Shown here: in pieces, positions 3,020 through 30,205 of the stretch
Position numbering within the stretch: the first letter of the stretch is position 1
How the letters are laid out: each line of letters starts with the position of its first letter
Assembly: GCA_017504205.1 (NCBI GenBank)
Contig: JAFVRO010000022.1
Coordinates: 1-35,291 of the forward strand
Reading direction: 5' to 3'
Length of the DNA: 35,291 bases
Source: Clostridia bacterium
GTDB taxonomy: Bacteria; Bacillota; Clostridia; Oscillospirales; CAG-272
Program-made: the position numbers and the translations under genes
The notes under the pieces: generated by a model
Told to the model about the DNA's origin: nothing
The model's input: only the letters and a program-made list of their open reading frames with translations
Database searches by the model: none

Positions 3020-4696
3020 TTAATAAGAAAACTTCCCATTCGTGCAGTAAATTGTGGTGTTCGGAGCGTAAAGACTAAGTTTCTTCCGTTCCTCAAGTGT
3101 TCCCTTGAAGGTCACCCTTCCGATCTTTGAATCCTTGAATGCATTAAAGGATATCGCTTGGATGCTATTGTAAATGATGACCTCATCCGCCTCGCAGCAA
3201 CTGAAGGCGTCGGATTCTACAATTTTAACGCCGTCGCATATCTCAAGCCGCTTTATTCCAAAGCACTTTTCAAAGGCATTGTAATCGACCTTTTCAACCG
3301 TTGAAGGGATTTTCAACTCCTTCAGTGAGGTGCAGTGATAAAAGGCGTGGGATTCAATTTTTTCAAGTCCCTCAGGGAAAACAATGGCTTCAAGCTCTAT
3401 ACAATCATAGAACGCATAGCTTCCAATGCTCCGCACTCCTTCGTGAAGCTCAACGTGCTTGAGCGCGCGGCAATCCCAGAAAAGTGACTTCTCCACACGG
3501 TCAATCGTCAACGGTAGCCTGAAGCTGACAAGACCTGTGCCTCGGAATGCTCCCTCGCCGATGCTATTGACCGTCTCGGGAATATCAATTTGATCAAGAT
3601 GATGGCAAGCGTTAAAAGCATTGCCCTCTATGGACTCAAGTCCCTCACTCAGCAGTACGGACTGCAGGAAAGTGCACCCCAGAAACGCACCCTTGCCGAT
3701 GCGCTTTACTCCCGCCGGGACGGTGATATTACCCTTCAAATTGTAACACGTATTGAACGCGTTATCTCCTATCACGGTGAGCGTGGAGGGGAGACTGATG
3801 CCCGTGAGCGCTCTGCAATCCTCGAAAGCGCTCTCACCGATTATCTGTAAGCCCTCGGGTAATACTATTGCCTCCTCAAGCGAAACACAGCACTCAAACG
3901 CACTCTTTCCTATCTCAATAAGCGTGCTCGGGAAGGTAACGCTTTTCAGATAATTACAATTCGCAAAAGCGTTCTCTCCAATCACCTGCAACCCCTCGGG
4001 AAGAATAACGTGCGTTGCCTTCTTTGGAACAACGCCCGCCTTAAGCACCGTAGTACCTTCAGCTACAATAAATGACGCATATGCGTTCAATTTGCTCCAT
4101 ATCTCTTCAAAGTCACTCGCAAGAGCCTCCTTGTCGAGAGTATCGTAGCACGGCTCGTTCGCCTTCGTGCTGATACCAAGCAGTGTAGCATTTTCAGGAC
4201 TGATGCCGAGATACTTCTCAAGAAGTAACCGCAATCCTTTCGTAAATACCTCGTTTGCAATTTCACTGTAGCCACCAAACTTGGGATACAAATGGTTGTT
4301 GTAAATGTAGGTTATACTCCAAAGTGCGCGTGCAATTTTATCGAAAGCCCCATTCGGCTCCGCCGTGGTCATAAGCAAAAGATCGTGCTGCGGGATATCC
4401 GTCTCACCGCATACGCGCTCGGCCGTCATACCGCGAACAACGTAAACGTATACACCCATATTGGGTACTGTGGCAGTAAAGCTATGTATACTGTCATTGA
4501 TGGTTCCCATAGCCGCACCAACTCCGTCATAATCAAGGTCAGTGTAGCGGTACTCAACAATCTTTGCACACACTTTGCCGCTTGTCACGGTCATGGTGTA
4601 CCAGCTCTCGTCACTGCTGCGTGTTTGTGAGTACTTTGTAGAATATTCTGCAATTTTGGTTGTATCGGATGCCGGGTTGATCTCGTAATGTATCAT
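3020..4696 (-). CDS. Leucine-rich-repeat (BspA-like, LRR_5) protein without signal peptide
   Basis: This 558-residue protein has an N-terminal region of about 230 residues that I do not recognise, then about 13 leucine-rich repeats of roughly 23 residues. Each repeat has the BspA/TpLRR pattern L-x-x-I-x-x-x-A-F-x-x-C, with the aromatic recurring every 22-24 residues from about 244 to 520. Related proteins are often secreted adhesins, but no signal peptide, anchor or transmembrane helix is seen, so this one is probably cytoplasmic or exported by another route. The start was placed at 4696 because GGAGG lies five bases upstream; the longer frame from 4708 would put its ATG inside that site. It is monocistronic, with its own promoter, and convergent with the cupin operon. 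Confidence 0.85.
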   Translation of the reverse strand: MIHYEINPASDTTKIAEYSTKYSQTRSSDESWYTMTVTSGKVCAKIVEYRYTDLDYDGVGAAMGTINDSIHSFTATVPNMGVYVYVVRGMTAERVCGETDIPQHDLLLMTTAEPNGAFDKIARALWSITYIYNNHLYPKFGGYSEIANEVFTKGLRLLLEKYLGISPENATLLGISTKANEPCYDTLDKEALASDFEEIWSKLNAYASFIVAEGTTVLKAGVVPKKATHVILPEGLQVIGENAFANCNYLKSVTFPSTLIEIGKSAFECCVSLEEAIVLPEGLQIIGESAFEDCRALTGISLPSTLTVIGDNAFNTCYNLKGNITVPAGVKRIGKGAFLGCTFLQSVLLSEGLESIEGNAFNACHHLDQIDIPETVNSIGEGAFRGTGLVSFRLPLTIDRVEKSLFWDCRALKHVELHEGVRSIGSYAFYDCIELEAIVFPEGLEKIESHAFYHCTSLKELKIPSTVEKVDYNAFEKCFGIKRLEICDGVKIVESDAFSCCEADEVIIYNSIQAISFNAFKDSKIGRVTFKGTLEERKKLSLYAPNTTIYCTNGKFSY

Positions 4697-4739
4697 ATCG
4701 TCCTCCATAATTTATATATTTGGGTAAAACGCTTAATTC

Positions 4740-4947: not shown

Positions 4948-6324
4948 ATGAATAATTCAAACACATTTCTCGACCTTAGCGGAAGAGAAATGCTTACAAA
5001 TCTCTTTGATGACGGATCCTTTGTTGAGCTTGGCGCATACGTTAAGCGAAACGGCAGTGTATCCGAGAACGAAGGCGTTATTTGCGGCTACGGCTCCGTA
5101 AATTCAAGGCTTGTGTTCGCATTCGCGCAGGACAGAACCTCATCCGGTGGCGCGGTGGACGCATACCACGCGAAGAAAATTGAAATGCTTTATGAGATGG
5201 CGCTGAAAAACGGCTCCGCAGTAATCGGAATTTTTGATAGCGACGGTGCCACCGTGCTTGACGGCTTTTCATCCGTCAGTGCATACGGAAGAATAGTAAA
5301 ATGTATATCGGATGCATCGGGTAAGATACCGCAGATAGCAATTCTCAGTGGTGTCTGCAACGGCACTATGGCGGCGGCATTTCAGATGTTCGATATCAGA
5401 ATAGCGATCAAGGACGTATCTATGCTGTATGTCGGCTCCCCCTCCATCATAGGCGAGGCGTTCGGTAAAACAGAATTTATTGTTAAGAACGGACTTGTAA
5501 GCACCGTCTCCAATGATCTTGCTTCTGCCATTGATTGCGCACGCAGTTTCATTGAGCTTATGCCGGATAATTGCAACGGAAAAGCAGTATCCGAGTCATC
5601 CGATGACGTACAGAGGGATACCTTCCTTGATATGGAAGACACAAGAAACTGCATTGAGGAAATATCTGACGGTTACAAATTCGTTGAGCTTTACCGTGAC
5701 TACGCGGAGGATATGATAACCGCCTTTACAACGGTGGGCGGATTAACCGTTGGTATCGTTGCCAATAACGTAAAATGTAACGGCGGCAGAGTAACTCCCA
5801 AAGGCGCGGAGAAAGCGTCAACGCTTATTAGCTTTTGTGATAGCTTTTCAATTCCCGTCGTAACGCTTGCAAACTCAGACGGTGTAGAAGTATCTTCCGA
5901 GGCAGAGCAGGCAAGGATCGCGTCCGCTATGGCAAAGCTTCTTACCTCCTACGCCTCAGCAACTACACCAAAGATCACTGTAATCCTCAATAACCTGTAC
6001 GGATCATCCTGCATACTGATGGGTTCAAAGAGCGTCGGGGCAGACGTGGTATACGCGCTCGACTCCGCCTCCATCGGCGCACTCTCTCCAAGTGCCGCAG
6101 TAGCCTTCTTCGAAAATGCAAAGGTGGATTCCGCCGATACACGTCAAAGACTTGAAGAGGATTGGAACAAAACCAATCTCACCGCCGCGAAGGCAGCAGA
6201 AAACGGCGATATTGACGACGTTATTACTTCATATGATCTGCGCCGCCGTATATGCTCCGCACTTTATATGCTCTCAGAGAAAAATACACCTCTGTGTAAA
6301 AAGCATTCAACCGCTATAATGTAA
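4948..6324 (+). CDS. Divergent biotin-dependent carboxyltransferase (MmdA / transcarboxylase 12S-like)
   Basis: This 458-residue protein has the two crotonase-like halves of the acyl-CoA carboxyltransferase family (MmdA, PccB, transcarboxylase 12S), which moves CO2 between biotin and an acyl-CoA such as methylmalonyl-CoA. Recognisable parts are ICGYGSVN and FAQD (about 45-62), HAKKI (74-78), and in the second half GGLTVGIVAN (264-273), FCDSFSIPVV (296-305) and TPKITVIL (340-347). It is some 50 residues shorter than typical MmdA. Signature loops are altered: SGGA near 98 reads SDGA, the first Gly-Gly loop reads CNGT (137-140), and the second Gly-Gly-Ala loop reads YGSSC (351-355). It opens an operon with OadG, biotin carrier, OadB and OadA. 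It may be a working enzyme with changed specificity or a structural paralogue. Confidence 0.8.
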   Translation: MNNSNTFLDLSGREMLTNLFDDGSFVELGAYVKRNGSVSENEGVICGYGSVNSRLVFAFAQDRTSSGGAVDAYHAKKIEMLYEMALKNGSAVIGIFDSDGATVLDGFSSVSAYGRIVKCISDASGKIPQIAILSGVCNGTMAAAFQMFDIRIAIKDVSMLYVGSPSIIGEAFGKTEFIVKNGLVSTVSNDLASAIDCARSFIELMPDNCNGKAVSESSDDVQRDTFLDMEDTRNCIEEISDGYKFVELYRDYAEDMITAFTTVGGLTVGIVANNVKCNGGRVTPKGAEKASTLISFCDSFSIPVVTLANSDGVEVSSEAEQARIASAMAKLLTSYASATTPKITVILNNLYGSSCILMGSKSVGADVVYALDSASIGALSPSAAVAFFENAKVDSADTRQRLEEDWNKTNLTAAKAAENGDIDDVITSYDLRRRICSALYMLSEKNTPLCKKHSTAIM

Positions 6325-6338
6325 AGGACGGTGCCAAA

Positions 6339-6755
6339 ATGCTTCCATATAAATTGTTAAATATGTCTTTTGCTTTGGCACGTGAAATGCTTCCATTTGG
6401 AGAACGCCTTGAATACGCTCTTCAGGTATCTCTTATAGGTATTATCGCGGTCTTTGGCGCGTTGACTCTCATAATGCTGATACTGAAGCTTATGAAGGTC
6501 GTTATGGATCTCATTGATAAAGCAAAGACCAAGGGAAATAAAAAAAGACTTCTTGCAGCATCCTCCGCCGATACCGCAGAGTTGCAACCCGAGAGGTCGG
6601 ATGACGGTGAGCTTATAGCAGTCATCACCGCCGCCGTTGCCGCTACCCTGTCTGAGGAAAATAAAAAATCTACAGACCCCTCAACCCACTTCGGTGAAAA
6701 CGGCTTTAAGGTCGTTTCATTCAAGCGCATAGGCTCAAACAATAAAAAGAACTAA
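6339..6755 (+). CDS. oadG: Na+-translocating decarboxylase gamma subunit (OadG/MmdD family)
   Basis: This 138-residue protein has one transmembrane helix (about residues 28-53), a charged linker, and a C-terminal stretch with DDGELIAVITAAVAATL (about 88-104), which is characteristic of the OAD_gamma family. The subunit anchors and assembles the carboxyltransferase, biotin carrier and beta subunit at the membrane. It starts 14 bases after the 12S-like gene, with AAAGGA overlapping that gene's stop codon. It is poorly conserved in general; the assignment rests on the helix-plus-AVI motif and on the gene order. Confidence 0.82.
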   Translation: MLPYKLLNMSFALAREMLPFGERLEYALQVSLIGIIAVFGALTLIMLILKLMKVVMDLIDKAKTKGNKKRLLAASSADTAELQPERSDDGELIAVITAAVAATLSEENKKSTDPSTHFGENGFKVVSFKRIGSNNKKN

Positions 6756-6784: not shown

Positions 6785-7141
6785 ATGAAAAAATATATAG
6801 TTACAGTAAACGGAAATCAATATGAGGTAGCTGTTGAGGAGGTTACCGATAACGCCACCACTGAACAACCCACACAGCCCCGCACAGTATCTACTCCAAA
6901 AACAACCGTAAAAAAGGATAAGCAGGGAAGCATAAAAATCACAGTTCCTATGGCGGGTACTATCAGTGAAATGCTCGTAAAGCCCGGCGATAAGGTCACC
7001 AGAGGTCAGACCGTTTGTACCCTTGAAGCAATGAAGATGATAAATAATATCCCCGCTCCACAGGACGGCGTAGTAGTATCCGTCGAGGTGTTTGCAGGCG
7101 CAAGAGTGGAGACCGACCAGGTCGTCGTAACCATTGACTGA
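6785..7141 (+). CDS. Biotin carboxyl carrier protein of the decarboxylase complex
   Basis: This 118-residue protein ends in a biotinyl/lipoyl domain with the canonical EAMKM at residues 81-85; K84 would be biotinylated. The hydrophobic and glycine framework around it (VPMAGTI, VKPGDKV, PQDGVV) is intact. The first ~20 residues form a beta segment, followed by a Thr/Pro/Lys-rich linker (about 23-48) that lets the arm swing between active sites, as in MmdC and transcarboxylase 1.3S. It is the only biotin carrier in the operon, so both carboxyltransferases presumably use it. No biotin ligase is in the window. Confidence 0.93.
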   Translation: MKKYIVTVNGNQYEVAVEEVTDNATTEQPTQPRTVSTPKTTVKKDKQGSIKITVPMAGTISEMLVKPGDKVTRGQTVCTLEAMKMINNIPAPQDGVVVSVEVFAGARVETDQVVVTID

Positions 7142-7156
7142 TAAGGAAGTAGACTT

Positions 7157-8350
7157 ATGTGGGAAAGTATTCTGAATTTTCTTGAAAGCACGGGTATCGT
7201 CCGTCTGTTCACATCCTCGGAGGATCCGTGGATGTGGCTCAAGACGCTTGCCATGTATGCAATCGTTTGCGGTCTCGTGTACTTAGCAGTTGTAAAGCAA
7301 TACGAGCCGCTCCTTCTTCTCCCGATCGCATTTGGTATGCTTCTGGCAAACCTTCCCGGTGCAAACCTGATAGATACCGAGCTATTTCTTTCCGACGGAC
7401 CACTTGACATAGTGAAGGTAGTTCAGCAGGGAAGTCTGCTCGATTTCCTTTATCTCGGTGTTAAGCTCGGTATATTCCCGGCACTCATATTTATGGGCGT
7501 AGGTGCTATGACCGACTTTACCGCGCTTATTGCTAACCCTAAAAGCTTACTTATAGGCGCCGCCGCACAGATTGGCGTGTTCCTTGCATTCTCGGGAGCC
7601 GTCCTCTCAGGCGTATTCTCACCTCAGGAGGCGGCGGCAATAGGCATAATCGCGGGCGCTGACGGTCCGACCGCTATCCAGGTCACCAAAGAACTTGCTC
7701 CCGCACTTCTCAGCTCAATAGCAATTGCCGCATATAGCTATATGGCACTTATCCCAATGATCCAACCGCCGATAATGCGTGCTCTTACTACTAAAAAAGA
7801 ACGTCTCATTAAAATGACCGCCCTCAGAAGAGTAAGCAAGGCGGAAAGACTCATATTCCCGATCCTCGTTACCATCGTAGTTGCTCTCATCGTTCCCGAC
7901 GCGGTAATGCTCGTAGGATTTTTGATGTTCGGTAATATTCTGAACGTCTGCGGAGTCACCGACAGACTCTCCAAGACTGCTCAGAACGGCCTTATGAACG
8001 CCATCACGATATTCCTCGGAGTAACCGTCGGAGCGACCGCAAGCGCAGAGAACTTCCTTCGCATCGAAACCTTCCTGATCATCATACTCGGCTTTTTGGC
8101 ATTCGCAATAGCAACCGCATCAGGACTACTGTTTGCAAAGCTTATGTGCTTCGTCACGGGAGGTAAGATCAATCCTCTCATAGGTGCCGCAGGCGTTTCC
8201 GCAGTACCTATGGCGGCAAGAATGGCGCAAAAGGTTGGCGCCGAAGCAGACCCCACCAACTTCCTTCTTATGCACGCAATGGGCCCCAATGTCGCGGGCA
8301 TTATCGGATCTGCCGTTGCCGCAGGCGTATTCTTAAGTTGGAATTGGTAA
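7157..8350 (+). CDS. oadB: Na+-translocating decarboxylase beta subunit (OadB/MmdB/GcdB)
   Basis: This 397-residue polytopic membrane protein has about nine or more hydrophobic segments. It takes CO2 from carboxybiotin and couples the decarboxylation to Na+ export. The conserved GADGPT sits at residues 167-172; D169 matches the essential Asp of region IIIa in characterised OadB proteins. Other family features are GVGAMTDF (114-121) and the C-terminal AAGVSAVPMAARM segment with HAMGPNVAG. Length is a little under the usual ~430. It starts 15 bases after the biotin carrier gene. Whether the feeding reaction is oxaloacetate or methylmalonyl-CoA decarboxylation depends on the two carboxyltransferases beside it. 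Confidence 0.92.
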   Translation: MWESILNFLESTGIVRLFTSSEDPWMWLKTLAMYAIVCGLVYLAVVKQYEPLLLLPIAFGMLLANLPGANLIDTELFLSDGPLDIVKVVQQGSLLDFLYLGVKLGIFPALIFMGVGAMTDFTALIANPKSLLIGAAAQIGVFLAFSGAVLSGVFSPQEAAAIGIIAGADGPTAIQVTKELAPALLSSIAIAAYSYMALIPMIQPPIMRALTTKKERLIKMTALRRVSKAERLIFPILVTIVVALIVPDAVMLVGFLMFGNILNVCGVTDRLSKTAQNGLMNAITIFLGVTVGATASAENFLRIETFLIIILGFLAFAIATASGLLFAKLMCFVTGGKINPLIGAAGVSAVPMAARMAQKVGAEADPTNFLLMHAMGPNVAGIIGSAVAAGVFLSWNW

Positions 8351-8375: not shown

Positions 8376-9785
8376 ATGTCAGATACAGTAAAACAGGTAA
8401 AGATAACAGAAACCGTCCTTCGCGATGCCCATCAGTCGCTTATGGCAACCCGAATGACGTCCGAAAATATGATTCCCGCACTCGAAATGCTCGATAGCAT
8501 CGGATACCACTCTCTCGAGGCATGGGGCGGCGCAACCTTTGATGCCTGCCTGCGCTTTCTTGATGAAGACCCATGGCACAGACTCCGAATCATCCGTGAT
8601 CACGTAAAGAATACTAAGCTGCAGATGCTCTTCAGAGGACAGAATATCCTCGGATACCGCCATTACGCCGACGATGTCGTTGAATACTTCGTCCAAAAGT
8701 CAATCGCAAACGGTATCGATATTATACGCATCTTCGACGCCCTTAACGATCCGCGTAACCTCAGAACCTCAATAAATGCCGCCAAACGCGAGGGCGGACA
8801 TGTCCAGGCGGCAATCTCATATACTACAAGTCCTGTGCATACAAGCGAGTTTTTCGCTCAGTATGCAAAGCAGCTTGAGGAGATGGGAGCTGATTCTATC
8901 TGTATTAAAGATATGGCAGGACTTCTTACCCCTTACGCCGCATACGAGCTCGTTACCGCATTGAAGCAGACGGTGTCGCTTCCTATACAGCTTCATACAC
9001 ACTATACCTCAGGTCTTGCCTCTATGACGATCCTTAAAGCGGTCGAGGCAGGTGTCGATGTAGTTGACACGGCTCTCTCTCCCTTCTCACTCGGTACGTC
9101 TCAGGCTCCTACTGAGGCAATAGTTGCCGCACTTCGCGGAACTGAATACGATACGGGACTTTCTCTTGAATCCCTCGACGGACTTACAAAATACTTCACC
9201 GGACTTCGTGAAAAATATCTTGCGGAAGGTCTTATCGACCCCACCGTTCTCAAGGTCGACGTCAACGCACTTATCTATCAAGTTCCCGGAGGAATGCTCT
9301 CCAACCTTATTTCTCAGCTTAAAAATGCAGGCAAATCCGAGCTTCTTGGAGCCGTGCTTGAGGAGGTTCCACGCGTAAGAGCAGACGCAGGATATCCTCC
9401 GCTTGTTACACCGTCATCGCAGATCGTCGGAACTCAGGCGGTTATGAACGTGCTGCTCGGACAGAGGTACGAGCGCGTTACAAAGGAATTCAAGGGCCTT
9501 ATAAAGGGCGAATACGGCAAGACTCCAATGCCGATAGACCCCGAGCTTCGCCATAGCATACTTGGCGACGAAGAGCCCATCACCTGCCGTCCCGCAGATC
9601 TCATCGCTCCCGAGCTTGACCGTGCAAGATCCGAGATCCTGCAATATCTTACTCAGGATGAGGATGTGCTTTCGTATGCACTGTTCGAACAGGTCGCACT
9701 CAAATTCTTTGAAAAACGCAAAATGAGGACGTACGGACTTGATGCCACAACATCCGATCCCAAGCGCGGAATTCATAGCGTATAA
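8376..9785 (+). CDS. oadA: Oxaloacetate decarboxylase alpha / pyruvate carboxylase B carboxyltransferase (5S-like)
   Basis: This 469-residue TIM-barrel carboxyltransferase would move CO2 between oxaloacetate/pyruvate and biotin. Hallmarks are TVLRDAHQSL (13-22, metal-binding Asp), LEAWGGATFD, LFRGQNILGY, the biotin-contacting CIKDMAG lysine, and the metal-binding His pair in LHTHYTSG, followed by the conserved PycB/OadA C-terminal region. There is no fused biotinyl domain, so it must use the separate carrier gene in the operon, like transcarboxylase 5S and split OadA proteins. It is the last operon gene, with AAGGAG before the ATG and a terminator just after. Confidence 0.93.
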   Translation: MSDTVKQVKITETVLRDAHQSLMATRMTSENMIPALEMLDSIGYHSLEAWGGATFDACLRFLDEDPWHRLRIIRDHVKNTKLQMLFRGQNILGYRHYADDVVEYFVQKSIANGIDIIRIFDALNDPRNLRTSINAAKREGGHVQAAISYTTSPVHTSEFFAQYAKQLEEMGADSICIKDMAGLLTPYAAYELVTALKQTVSLPIQLHTHYTSGLASMTILKAVEAGVDVVDTALSPFSLGTSQAPTEAIVAALRGTEYDTGLSLESLDGLTKYFTGLREKYLAEGLIDPTVLKVDVNALIYQVPGGMLSNLISQLKNAGKSELLGAVLEEVPRVRADAGYPPLVTPSSQIVGTQAVMNVLLGQRYERVTKEFKGLIKGEYGKTPMPIDPELRHSILGDEEPITCRPADLIAPELDRARSEILQYLTQDEDVLSYALFEQVALKFFEKRKMRTYGLDATTSDPKRGIHSV

Positions 9786-9918: not shown

Positions 9919-10686
9919 ATGTATAATAAAGTGGAAATATGCGGCGTAAATACCGCAAAACTTAAAACCTTGACCGACGCCGAAAAGCATGATCTGCTGT
10001 TAGCAACAAAATCAGGGGATATGAATGCCCGCGACAAACTGTTTATGGGAAACCTACGCCTCGTGCTCAGCATTATCCAACGCTTCAGTAACCGTAAGGA
10101 AAATATGGACGACCTTTTTCAGGTCGGATGCATCGGGCTGATAAAGGCGATAGACAATTTTAACATGGATCTCGACGTCAAACTCAGCACCTATGCGTGT
10201 CCAATGATAATAGGCGAAATACGCAGATATCTGCGCGACAACAACGCAGTGAGGATCAGCCGTTCCGTGCGAGATCTTGCCTATCGCGCACTGCAAGCAA
10301 GGGAAGAGCTTACAAGCGATAAAGGCGAGCCCACACTTGATGCTATTGCCGTATACCTTGGAGAAAAAAAGGAAAACGTCTTGAGAGCAATGGAGGCTAT
10401 CGTCGAGCCTATTTCAATATATGAACCCGTATACAGTGAAAACGGTGACTCCATCTATGTTATAGATCAGCTGAGTGATAACGATGCCGTCGAAAATAAC
10501 TGGCTTGAGAGCGTTGCCTTAAGAGAAGCTCTCAAAAAGCTTGGTGAGCGCGAGCGCACCATAATAAATATGCGCTATTATAATAACAAAACCCAGATGC
10601 AGATCGCTGAGGAGATCGGAATATCTCAGGCTCAGGTATCAAGACTTGAAAAAAGCGCACTCGAAAAAATGCGAAAGCAGATATGA
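9919..10686 (+). CDS. sigG: Forespore-specific RNA polymerase sigma factor SigG
   Basis: This 255-residue sigma-70 family protein directs late forespore transcription during endospore formation. The N-terminus NKVEICGVNTAKL is the diagnostic SigG segment, absent from SigF and SigB. Region 2 includes NLRLVLSIIQRF and DDLFQVGCIGLIKAIDNF (64-81) and MIIGEIRRYLRDNN; region 4 ends in the helix-turn-helix TQMQIAEEIGISQAQVSRLE (225-244). GGGAG precedes the ATG. The immediate upstream gene is oadA, not the sigE-spoIIGA pair that usually precedes sigG. A strong terminator follows. Its presence marks the organism as a spore-former, at least by ancestry. Confidence 0.95.
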   Translation: MYNKVEICGVNTAKLKTLTDAEKHDLLLATKSGDMNARDKLFMGNLRLVLSIIQRFSNRKENMDDLFQVGCIGLIKAIDNFNMDLDVKLSTYACPMIIGEIRRYLRDNNAVRISRSVRDLAYRALQAREELTSDKGEPTLDAIAVYLGEKKENVLRAMEAIVEPISIYEPVYSENGDSIYVIDQLSDNDAVENNWLESVALREALKKLGERERTIINMRYYNNKTQMQIAEEIGISQAQVSRLEKSALEKMRKQI

Positions 10687-10701
10687 TGCGTCATACCTCA
10701 G

Positions 10702-10740
10702 AATACCGTTTCATATATTATGTATGAAACGGTATTTTTT
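10702..10740 (+). terminator. Intrinsic terminator between sigG and the carboxypeptidase gene
   Basis: A 14-bp perfect stem (AATACCGTTTCATA and its complement at 10723-10736) with a 7-base loop runs into six Ts. The T-run abuts the AAGGAG ribosome binding site of the next gene, so that gene is reached either by read-through or from a promoter overlapping this hairpin. Confidence 0.85.
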
Positions 10741-10753
10741 AAGGAGAAACATA

Positions 10754-11941
10754 ATGAAGATCAAATTACTCGCACTGTTCATGGCAATACTACTGCCACT
10801 CTTGCTTTTACATACCTCAGCAAATGCCTCTGAAAGCTCACCTGAATCCGACACATACACACTTGAAACCGTAGAAGACGGTTCCCTTTCCCTGAATTGC
10901 GTAAGCGCTCTCCTTATGGAGGCGTCAACCGGTACCGTCCTCTATGAGCAAAATGCCGACGAAATGCTTCCTCCCGCATCCGTTACTAAAGTAATGACGT
11001 TGCTTCTGGTTATGGAAGCAATCGATTCGGGCGCTATAAAATTGGACGATACCGTAACGGTAAGCGCGAACGCCGCGTCAATGGGAGGCTCTCAGGTGTT
11101 TCTGAAGGAGGGCGAGCAGATGAGCGTCGAGGATATGCTCAAATGCGTGGTTATAGCTTCCGCTAACGATGCGGCGGTAGCCCTTGCCGAGCATATCTGC
11201 GGAAACGAAAGCACCTTTGTCGCCCGAATGAACGAAAGAGCCAAGGAACTCGGAATGGTGAATACGGTGTTTGAAAACACAAACGGACTTGACGATACTG
11301 CAGTGTCACACCTTACAAGCGCAAGAGATATTGCTATAATGTCGCGTGAACTTATCAAACACGAAAAAATTCTTGAATATAGCTCTATCTGGATGGATAC
11401 CGTCCGAAACGGCGAATTCGGCCTTACCAACACCAATCGACTTGTTCGCTTCTATAAAGGCTGCACAGGGCTTAAAACAGGCTCGACCGCAAAGGCAGGC
11501 TTTTGCATCAGCGCAACAGCAGAAAGAGAAGGTATGAGCCTCATCTGCGTAATAATGGGCGCCGAGAGCCGCGACATACGAAATGCACAGGCAACTGCGC
11601 TCCTCGATTGGGGCTTTGCAAGCTACGCGCTTTATCATGCAGACGGCGGCGATACTCAACCCATATCAGTGCGCGGAGGGCAAAAAAACAAAGTTAACGC
11701 ATCCTACCCGGAATTTTCCTGCATACTTCCTAAGTCCGAAATATCTGCAGTTAAAAGTGATATCTCAATGCAGACCGAACTTACTGCCCCGATAAAAAAC
11801 GGCGACGAGATCGGAAGGGTCACGTATTCCTGCAATGGAAAAACAATAGGTGAGGTAGCGATAACCGTCGCCGAGGACGTTGAAAGGCTGACTTTCTGGC
11901 AGATATTTCTTCGTATGCTTTCAATTTATACTCTGAAATAG
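10754..11941 (+). CDS. D-alanyl-D-alanine carboxypeptidase (S11 family, DacF/DacB-like)
   Basis: This 395-residue secreted penicillin-binding protein would trim the terminal D-Ala of peptidoglycan stem peptides. All three active-site motifs are present: S76-V-T-K79, S136-A-N138 and K241-T-G. Residues 1-25 are a signal peptide (K-I-K, a leucine-rich core, cleavage after ANA). After the catalytic domain comes a PBP5-type C-terminal domain, ending in an amphipathic tail that may sit on the membrane. The start at 10754 is set by AAGGAG eight bases upstream and by the signal peptide; an in-frame ATG at 10646 lies inside sigG. Adjacency to sigG suggests the sporulation enzyme DacF, but DacA/DacB-like roles cannot be excluded. 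Confidence 0.9.
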   Translation: MKIKLLALFMAILLPLLLLHTSANASESSPESDTYTLETVEDGSLSLNCVSALLMEASTGTVLYEQNADEMLPPASVTKVMTLLLVMEAIDSGAIKLDDTVTVSANAASMGGSQVFLKEGEQMSVEDMLKCVVIASANDAAVALAEHICGNESTFVARMNERAKELGMVNTVFENTNGLDDTAVSHLTSARDIAIMSRELIKHEKILEYSSIWMDTVRNGEFGLTNTNRLVRFYKGCTGLKTGSTAKAGFCISATAEREGMSLICVIMGAESRDIRNAQATALLDWGFASYALYHADGGDTQPISVRGGQKNKVNASYPEFSCILPKSEISAVKSDISMQTELTAPIKNGDEIGRVTYSCNGKTIGEVAITVAEDVERLTFWQIFLRMLSIYTLK

Positions 11942-19811: not shown

Positions 19812-20085
19812 AAAATAAAAATAAGCCCTGATGCCGAAGCACCAAGGACGGATATTTCACCGTGTTACCACCTTGATTTACACAGAACTCGCGTCCTGCG
19901 CCTTAGTGAGTATGATACTCTGTCGCTATAACGTGCGACTCACGTTACGTCCTACTTGCACAGGGCTTTCAGCGTAAAGCTCAGGAATGTATCTTCACCG
20001 TTGTTCTGTGCGCCTCTCATCAACCGGCAGCTTTCTGTAAAGAACGTGTGCGGCTACTTTTTTCCCTCAGTGCCTTTGAATATTG
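19812..20085 (-). ncRNA. Tyrosine-specific T-box riboswitch of tyrS
   Basis: The minus-strand leader carries the T-box/antiterminator sequence AAGGTGGTAACACGG (19860-19874), which pairs with the CCA end of uncharged tRNA. Stem I has the GATGAGAGG element, and a specifier region with UAC, a Tyr codon, at 19989-19991 followed by a purine. Downstream is a 9-bp terminator stem with a TTCG loop and the run CTTATTTTTATTTT (19809-19850). When tRNA-Tyr is uncharged, antitermination would allow tyrS expression. Confidence 0.93.
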
Positions 20086-30130: not shown

Positions 30131-30205
30131 GCCTGCATAGTTAAATGGATATAATAACCCCCTCCTAAGGGGTAGTTACAGGTTCGATTCCTGTTGCGGG
30201 TGCCA
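30131..30205 (+). tRNA. tRNA-Arg (anticodon CCU)
   Basis: A complete cloverleaf can be folded. The acceptor GCCTGCA pairs with TGCGGGT (G1-U72 and U4-G69 wobbles), the D stem is GTTA/TAAT, and the anticodon stem ACCCC/GGGGT holds loop CTCCTAA, placing CCT at 34-36. The T arm is ACAGG-TTCGATT-CCTGT. The 3' CCA is encoded. The anticodon reads the Arg codon AGG. Confidence 0.95.

Follow-up and report, generated by a model that had tools for sequence, protein, structure and literature searches.

The 12S subunit is the core of transcarboxylase. The Na+-pumping oxaloacetate decarboxylase OadGAB occurs in Klebsiella and Vibrio; OadA moves the carboxyl group of oxaloacetate to biotin, and OadB decarboxylates carboxybiotin with export of Na+. 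PccB, AccD5 and AccD6, the carboxyltransferase (CT) subunits of acyl-CoA carboxylases, are active enzymes. The locus described here resembles each of these systems in part. Its CT has the same fold as the acyl-CoA carboxylase subunits. With MmdA (TIGR01117) of the Na+-pumping MmdADCB it shares the fold and the OadG/MmdD-like, biotin carrier (BCCP) and OadB-type beta neighbours, but its loops are altered, it is shortened, OadA is encoded in the operon, the OadG tail is truncated, and the bacterial family lacks the mutase. Fold, 5S-type OadA and 1.3S-type carrier in one operon are shared with Propionibacterium transcarboxylase (12S structures 1on3 and 1on9), whereas the present operon adds OadB and OadG, that is, a Na+ pump, has altered loops in its CT, and is likened to the 12S hexamer by analogy only. 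OadA, OadB and OadG, with intact motifs, are shared with OadGAB; here, in contrast, the carrier has a gene of its own, and the gene for a CT-like subunit comes first. A similar combination of CT, OadA and carrier is described for clostridial strain BL-4 (CLOSBL4_v1_1895-1897), where the CT has 33% identity to 12S. In the accessible sections of that report, the cluster was proposed as a methylmalonyl-CoA transcarboxylase and the authors found no methylmalonyl-CoA mutase; the loops of the CT are not mentioned there (PMC7764203). The likeness is one of description rather than sequence; judged in this way, the BL-4 CT fits the degenerate group presented below in its identity level. No description of a degenerate CT of this kind was found in the openly licensed literature, including the accessible portions of PMC5534430, PMC3199775, PMC7835884 and PMC7764203.

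The window, meaning the whole stretch of DNA analysed, is contig JAFVRO010000022.1 (GCA_017504205.1), positions 1-35,291. Its source genome (assembly of 947,027 bases) is 52% complete, so the absence of FabF, AccD or mutase from it says little, and its single PF01039 match is the CT of the window. A genus-level search returned no further genome beyond the source genome; comparisons below refer to the bacterial family of this genome (the window's family) and to the class Clostridia. The operon has the order CT-OadG-BCCP-OadB-OadA, with CT as gene 1 (Table 1). The host is probably a spore former, because a SigG gene is present in the window.

Table 1. Features of the 35,291-nucleotide window
Feature	Position	Strand	Evidence or remark
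BspA-type leucine-rich repeat protein, 562 aa, divergent from the operon	3020-4708	-	LRR_5, 277 bits
Degenerate 12S/MmdA-like CT, 458 aa	4948-6324	+	PF01039 261.8 bits; TIGR01117 260.9 bits; AlphaFold2 pLDDT 90.9; TM 0.90 to PCC beta/12S
CT loop 1, residues 98-101 SDGA (canonical SGGA); Arg of SGGAR is T102	5239-5250	+	Translation, alignments
CT loop 2, residues 137-140 CNGT (canonical CAGG); YSP 143-145 is AAF	5356-5367	+	Translation, alignments
CT deletion site, about residues 170-171; 10 residues of the canonical TGP...VTGE...LGG loop missing	5455-5460	+	Alignments
CT loop 3, residues 351-354 YGSS (canonical YGGA)	5998-6009	+	Translation, alignments
OadG-like gamma subunit, 138 aa; lacks the C-terminal W..GRQEQ tail that accompanies canonical CTs	6339-6755	+	PF04277 61 bits
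BCCP, 1.3S-like, with EAMKM	6785-7141	+	PF00364 75.9 bits
OadB, Na+-translocating carboxybiotin decarboxylase subunit	7157-8350	+	PF03977 493 bits; TIGR01109 462 bits (cut-off 190.6)
OadA / 5S-type oxaloacetate carboxyltransferase, no fused BCCP	8376-9785	+	NF008985 764.5 bits (cut-off 718); catalytic residues kept
Sporulation sigma factor SigG gene downstream of the operon, then D-Ala-D-Ala carboxypeptidase	9919-11941		SigG 386 bits
T-box leader	19841-20079	-	93.4 bits, barely exceeding the gathering score of 93
tRNA	30131-30202	+	

The CT gene is a single, intact open frame. The residue register was set by pairwise alignment to the solved enzymes 1x0u and 6ybp and by a 156-sequence alignment. 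The three loops read as the original prediction had claimed, in translation and in alignment to solved enzymes. That prediction had named glycines reappearing after correct gapping as an outcome that would speak against it, and Gly140 and Gly353 are still absent in this register, at positions where 1x0u, 6ybp and 1vrg all keep Gly-Gly (equivalent to 139-140 and 352-353). In the window CT, each Gly-Gly loop has lost its second Gly, G100 is no longer preceded by a Gly, the SGGAR arginine is replaced and YSP has disappeared. The claim of lost glycines needs refinement, since the neighbours are gone yet one Gly stays in each loop (G100, G139 and G352) and is near-invariant in the clade; the losses also go beyond those predicted and include R102, Y143-S144-P145, the TGP...VTGE...LGG loop and the RHG motif. 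Where a catalytic member of the family would have Gly-Gly in both loops, SGGAR and YSP, this protein has T140, S353, T102 and A143-A144-F145. Positions 140 and 353 are the ones we take to carry the oxyanion amides, following the crotonase fold and Streptomyces coelicolor PccB; a search of the openly licensed literature found no statement on the oxyanion residues of PCC or 12S. The predicted shortfall of about 50 residues amounts to 55 when the 458 aa of the window CT are compared with the 513 aa of a canonical relative (L177), distributed over gaps of 23 (N-terminus), 7, 10, 10 and 4 residues.

These changes are set in a framework that is clearly of the family. The CT scores 261.8 bits against the PF01039 cut-off of 22.3 and has the double crotonase fold. 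An AlphaFold2 model built from a 35-row alignment gave a mean pLDDT of 90.9 and a pTM of 0.89, and its best Foldseek matches are PCC beta, engineered relatives and 12S (1on3), with TM 0.90 on the query. In VIA-align, AccD6 (4l6w) is the best match (Z 47.2, rmsd 1.7, 391 residues aligned), and 12S (1on9) aligns over 437 residues with Z 45.1 and rmsd 2.6. The predicted carboxyltransferase fold is complete; the model is of a monomer and thus silent on a hexamer.

A PF01039 profile search over 146 genomes of the window's family found a divergent CT in 89 (tally of profile searches). Seventy-nine loci were read, namely that of the window and 78 that were fetched; one genome contributed two of them. 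The complete five-gene order, with one frame per gene, is found in 69; among the remaining ten, four end for lack of downstream sequence, three are without OadB, in two no OadG was detected, and in one the OadA gene is broken into two frames. The 12S-like fold and the operon position claimed for the window's CT are supported. All 79 loci have Gly at position 100 and none has it at 99; it is kept at 139 in 76 loci and at 352 in 78, and remains at 140 in 2 and at 353 in 3. Ser144 and Pro145 occur in none and Arg102 in about 3. Residue 140 is spread over S, A, L, T, M and I. In a canonical set of 52 loci, 51 have all nine scored residues and L174 has eight. The TGP...VTGE...LGG stretch measures 26 residues in 52/52 canonical loci, against 5-21 residues in 78/79 family loci. 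Across 51 canonical loci, 196 positions are conserved to at least 96%; the clade retains 52 of these in 80% or more of its members and 69 in 20% or fewer, and the other 75 are intermediate. At 21 positions the family has fixed a new residue (at least 80%), for example A69, F96, A145, G348 and W406. Pairwise identity inside the clade has a median of 42%, and identity to the canonical L034 is about 26-34% at the ranks sampled. A second set of 80 named loci, which overlaps the first, has Gly140 in 2 and Gly353 in 2; its members are mostly uncultured Clostridia, some labelled Oscillospiraceae, and many come from the gut or rumen of animals according to record titles. The degenerate CT is a clade rather than a sequencing quirk, because the same changes recur in both of these overlapping sets. 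The residues lost make it very probable that the CT no longer carries out acyl-CoA carboxyl transfer. The word 'paralogue' in the original prediction is not supported, because 87 of the 89 family genomes with a degenerate CT showed no canonical copy; it is a displaced or decayed orthologue and not a second copy.

The partner proteins have kept their catalytic residues. Residues matching D17, K178, H207 and H209 of OadA are present in 75/75 loci, the biotin Lys of BCCP in 76/76 and the GADGPT motif of OadB in 74/74, so the catalytic motifs of a Na+-pumping oxaloacetate decarboxylase are intact in all three subunits. OadG differs in its C-terminus. The W..GRQEQ-like tail was found in 34 of 37 canonical loci by a pattern drawn up after inspecting some of the sequences scored, the other three having a variant by eye, and the same pattern matches 1 of 81 loci at loop scores 2-4 (L162) and 4 of 13 at scores 5-7. 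The CT gene is under purifying selection, as had been supposed: dN/dS is 0.04-0.14 in 11 of the 12 closest CT pairs, the twelfth being saturated, although these values are rough because dS is often near or above 1. CT dN exceeds OadA dN in 12/12 pairs. That the gene is functionless and decaying towards loss is hardly credible; the many conserved positions lost and the CT-less operons of the same family would agree with it, but the low dN/dS, the reading frames open along the CT length in all 79 family loci and the retention in 89/146 genomes do not.

The distribution of CT types was surveyed in a class sample of 148 Clostridia genomes, the window's own included. A canonical CT was found in 67 (by score or as a fragment) and a divergent one in 25 others; loops were read in 50 of the 67 and in all 25. 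The divergent CTs form a gradient from seven of the nine scored residues (L148) to two (L166). With AccD scored by weak matches to TIGR01117, a model that also fires in the E. coli control, FabF occurs in 66 of the 67 canonical genomes, and 63 of these 66 have no AccD-like match. Among the 25 genomes with divergent CTs, 11 have FabF, all with AccD, 13 have neither, and in one (G173, 72% complete) AccD is present and FabF was not found. The association of AccD with CT type among FabF-positive genomes has a Fisher p of 5e-11, kinship ignored. Where AccA/AccD are missing, canonical CT is, to judge by co-occurrence, the probable supplier of malonyl-CoA for fatty-acid synthesis. It is the likely malonyl-CoA source, probably as the carboxyltransferase of acetyl-CoA carboxylase, in most FabF-positive Clostridia carrying it, because no AccD was found in most of these.

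In the window's family, AccD was searched with its own model and is present in 28 of 30 FabF-positive genomes with a degenerate CT, while 59 of the 89 genomes with a degenerate CT have neither FabF nor AccD. FabF without AccD was seen in 4/146 family genomes, namely G035, G138, G049 (63% complete) and G118 (88%, fragment). In G035 and G138 there is, apart from the degenerate CT, a canonical one that lies away from the oad operon (L034 and L033). These two genomes are the only FabF-positive genomes of the family sample that are more than 90% complete and without AccD, and the solitary canonical CT lies beside glmM/glmS-like genes (names by eye). A degenerate CT is the sole CT of a FabF-positive genome lacking AccD in none of the 11 class genomes and none of the 30 family genomes. 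A role of the window CT as acetyl-CoA carboxylase was rejected, given that FabF and AccD co-occur in the family and that such a CT never stands alone in this sense.

Methylmalonyl-CoA mutase was found in 0/146 family genomes, and a methylmalonyl-CoA route for the window CT was rejected for this reason. In the class sample the mutase occurs in 16 of 67 genomes with canonical CT and in 0 of 25 with degenerate CT, so that all 16 mutase genomes have a canonical CT; no OadA was seen in the operons read from them, some of which are cut by contig ends. An MmdA would sit in an OadA-free operon of a genome with mutase, but here OadA lies in the operon and the mutase is absent from the 146 genomes, the window's own genome being 52% complete. 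These data bear on the reading that automatic annotation would give, a normally active 12S subunit or alpha subunit of methylmalonyl-CoA decarboxylase. The PF01039 score and the best NCBIfam match, TIGR01117 (mmdA), agree with it, as do the 12S-like CT, 5S/OadA and 1.3S/BCCP genes of the operon, the gene trio of transcarboxylase. The match to mmdA reaches 260.9 bits against a cut-off of 998.8, a cut-off also missed by canonical clostridial CTs; as it is reached by 0/148 class genomes, canonical carriers included, the score alone does not exclude MmdA. With the altered loops and the mutase distribution counting against it, we consider an ordinary MmdA or 12S highly improbable.

In a 78-row CT tree built without the loop columns, the family's 30 rows group as one clade (SH-aLRT 96), and the degenerate rows fall to one side of a single branch. 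In OadA trees, degenerate and canonical rows are intermixed, with about 10 changes of both traits, at least 4 of them forced by starred branches. Among 52 class rows with OadA, 28 are canonical where the CT is needed (FabF, no AccD) and 2 are canonical where it is not (L174 and L175), whereas 0 are degenerate where it is needed and 22 are degenerate where it is not. Four independent pairs could be drawn on starred OadA branches; they run in the same direction in 3.6 on average and never in the opposite one (sign test p 0.125). The single split of the CT tree conflicts with the several changes of the OadA tree. Within the class, degeneration of the CT seems to have occurred several times, and long branches may have pulled the degenerate CTs together in the CT tree; exchange of CTs between operons is an alternative. 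The idea of one clade tied to oadA operons therefore stands for the window's family but not class-wide, where several origins seem likely on the OadA tree.

Some operons of the same family have OadA, and mostly OadG, BCCP and OadB as well, but no CT (18 rows in the OadA tree). Their OadA belongs to another lineage, the long row L308 excepted, and descent of these operons from the window's lineage is not supported on this ground. Because they exist in the same family, the OadA/OadB pump can do without a CT subunit, which counts against a strict need for CT as core. Nine operons lack OadB (L055, L077, L085, L152, L160, L161, L164, L166 and L172), and OadB is encoded elsewhere in 9/9 of these genomes; a transcarboxylase without pump, with an active CT as sole acceptor, was rejected for them accordingly. 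L055, L077 and L085 have the order CT-OadG-BCCP-OadA in genomes with one OadA and OadB elsewhere. The OadB encoded elsewhere in G050, G068 and G132 is of another type that scores lower (its neighbours were read in G132 alone), and no OadA besides that of the operon was found in these genomes. No OadB was found in G236, whose CT (L165) is divergent and of unsure placement (long branch); no argument is rested on it here, though it is counted among the 25. The degenerate CT of L155 (G241) has no OadA in the stretch read, and one OadA-sized protein is encoded elsewhere in the genome.

On balance we think it probable, with some reserve, that the CT has lost acyl-CoA carboxyl transfer and is kept in a Na+-pumping oxaloacetate decarboxylase as a subunit without catalytic function, probably a structural one. 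By family biochemistry and intact motifs, OadA would load carrier-bound biotin with the carboxyl group of oxaloacetate, and OadB would decarboxylate carboxybiotin and export Na+. The CT, by its 12S fold, might form the core that holds the carrier and OadA, as 12S does in transcarboxylase, and its remaining role is probably structural. Where AccAD is present or fatty-acid synthesis has been lost, the CT would become dispensable, and its catalytic loops could decay while the gene stays under purifying selection. The original prediction had offered a different acyl-CoA substrate or a structural or regulatory role. The second option is favoured over canonical catalysis by the lost catalytic loops, the intact partner motifs and selection; the first is weakened by the spread of residue 140, the missing mutase and the mostly absent fatty-acid synthesis.

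A broader form of the first option is a re-tooled enzyme that moves carboxyl groups between biotin and another acceptor, an acyl-CoA or a non-CoA acid, its oxyanion hole being rebuilt from the amides of the altered loops. The 21 newly fixed positions could point to such a re-tooled site, and the backbone amides of the retained G100, A101 and G139 could still serve; the complete fold predicted with high confidence, the near-invariant Gly in each loop, the strong purifying selection and the position of CT as gene 1 of the operon in the family are all consistent with it. We nevertheless regard it as unlikely, as residue 140 varies, R102, YSP and the TGP...LGG loop are gone, no mutase occurs in the 146 genomes, and FabF and AccD are both missing from 59/89 family genomes with a degenerate CT. 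The evidence for a structural role, a fold retained with catalytic residues lost, applies equally to a regulatory subunit that would gate the decarboxylase by binding a CoA ester it does not turn over. This reading seems distinctly unlikely, given that there is no direct sign of ligand binding and that the shortened TGP...LGG loop may, by its position, line the CoA side. Beyond the preferred structural role, we would tentatively entertain, as a doubtful but possible extension, that a lineage of gut Clostridia made the CT a dedicated new subunit of the pump. The new residues (A69, F96, A145, G348 and W406) around the old active site would then sense a CoA metabolite to gate the pump or serve an undescribed carboxyl acceptor, and the conversion would have taken place on several occasions, each time once fatty-acid synthesis had ceased to rely on the CT.

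Databases name the degenerate CT as a working enzyme. If our explanation is true, a gene widespread in gut and rumen Clostridia, with methylmalonyl-CoA decarboxylase/carboxyltransferase as its nearest named family, does not run that reaction, and propionate pathways inferred from it would therefore be wrong; the BL-4 cluster is a possible case, as far as the accessible sections of its description go (PMC7764203). The gradient would also trace, in nature, the passage from an active enzyme to a subunit without catalysis, and the cause stated for it, presence of AccAD or loss of fatty-acid synthesis, would make the change testable.

L316 and L319, and also L320, L321 and L182, carry an OadB of a second type that scores lower (about 370-410 aa), with no CT, OadA or carrier found in the stretch. 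At L319-L321 a short OadG-like protein follows this OadB.
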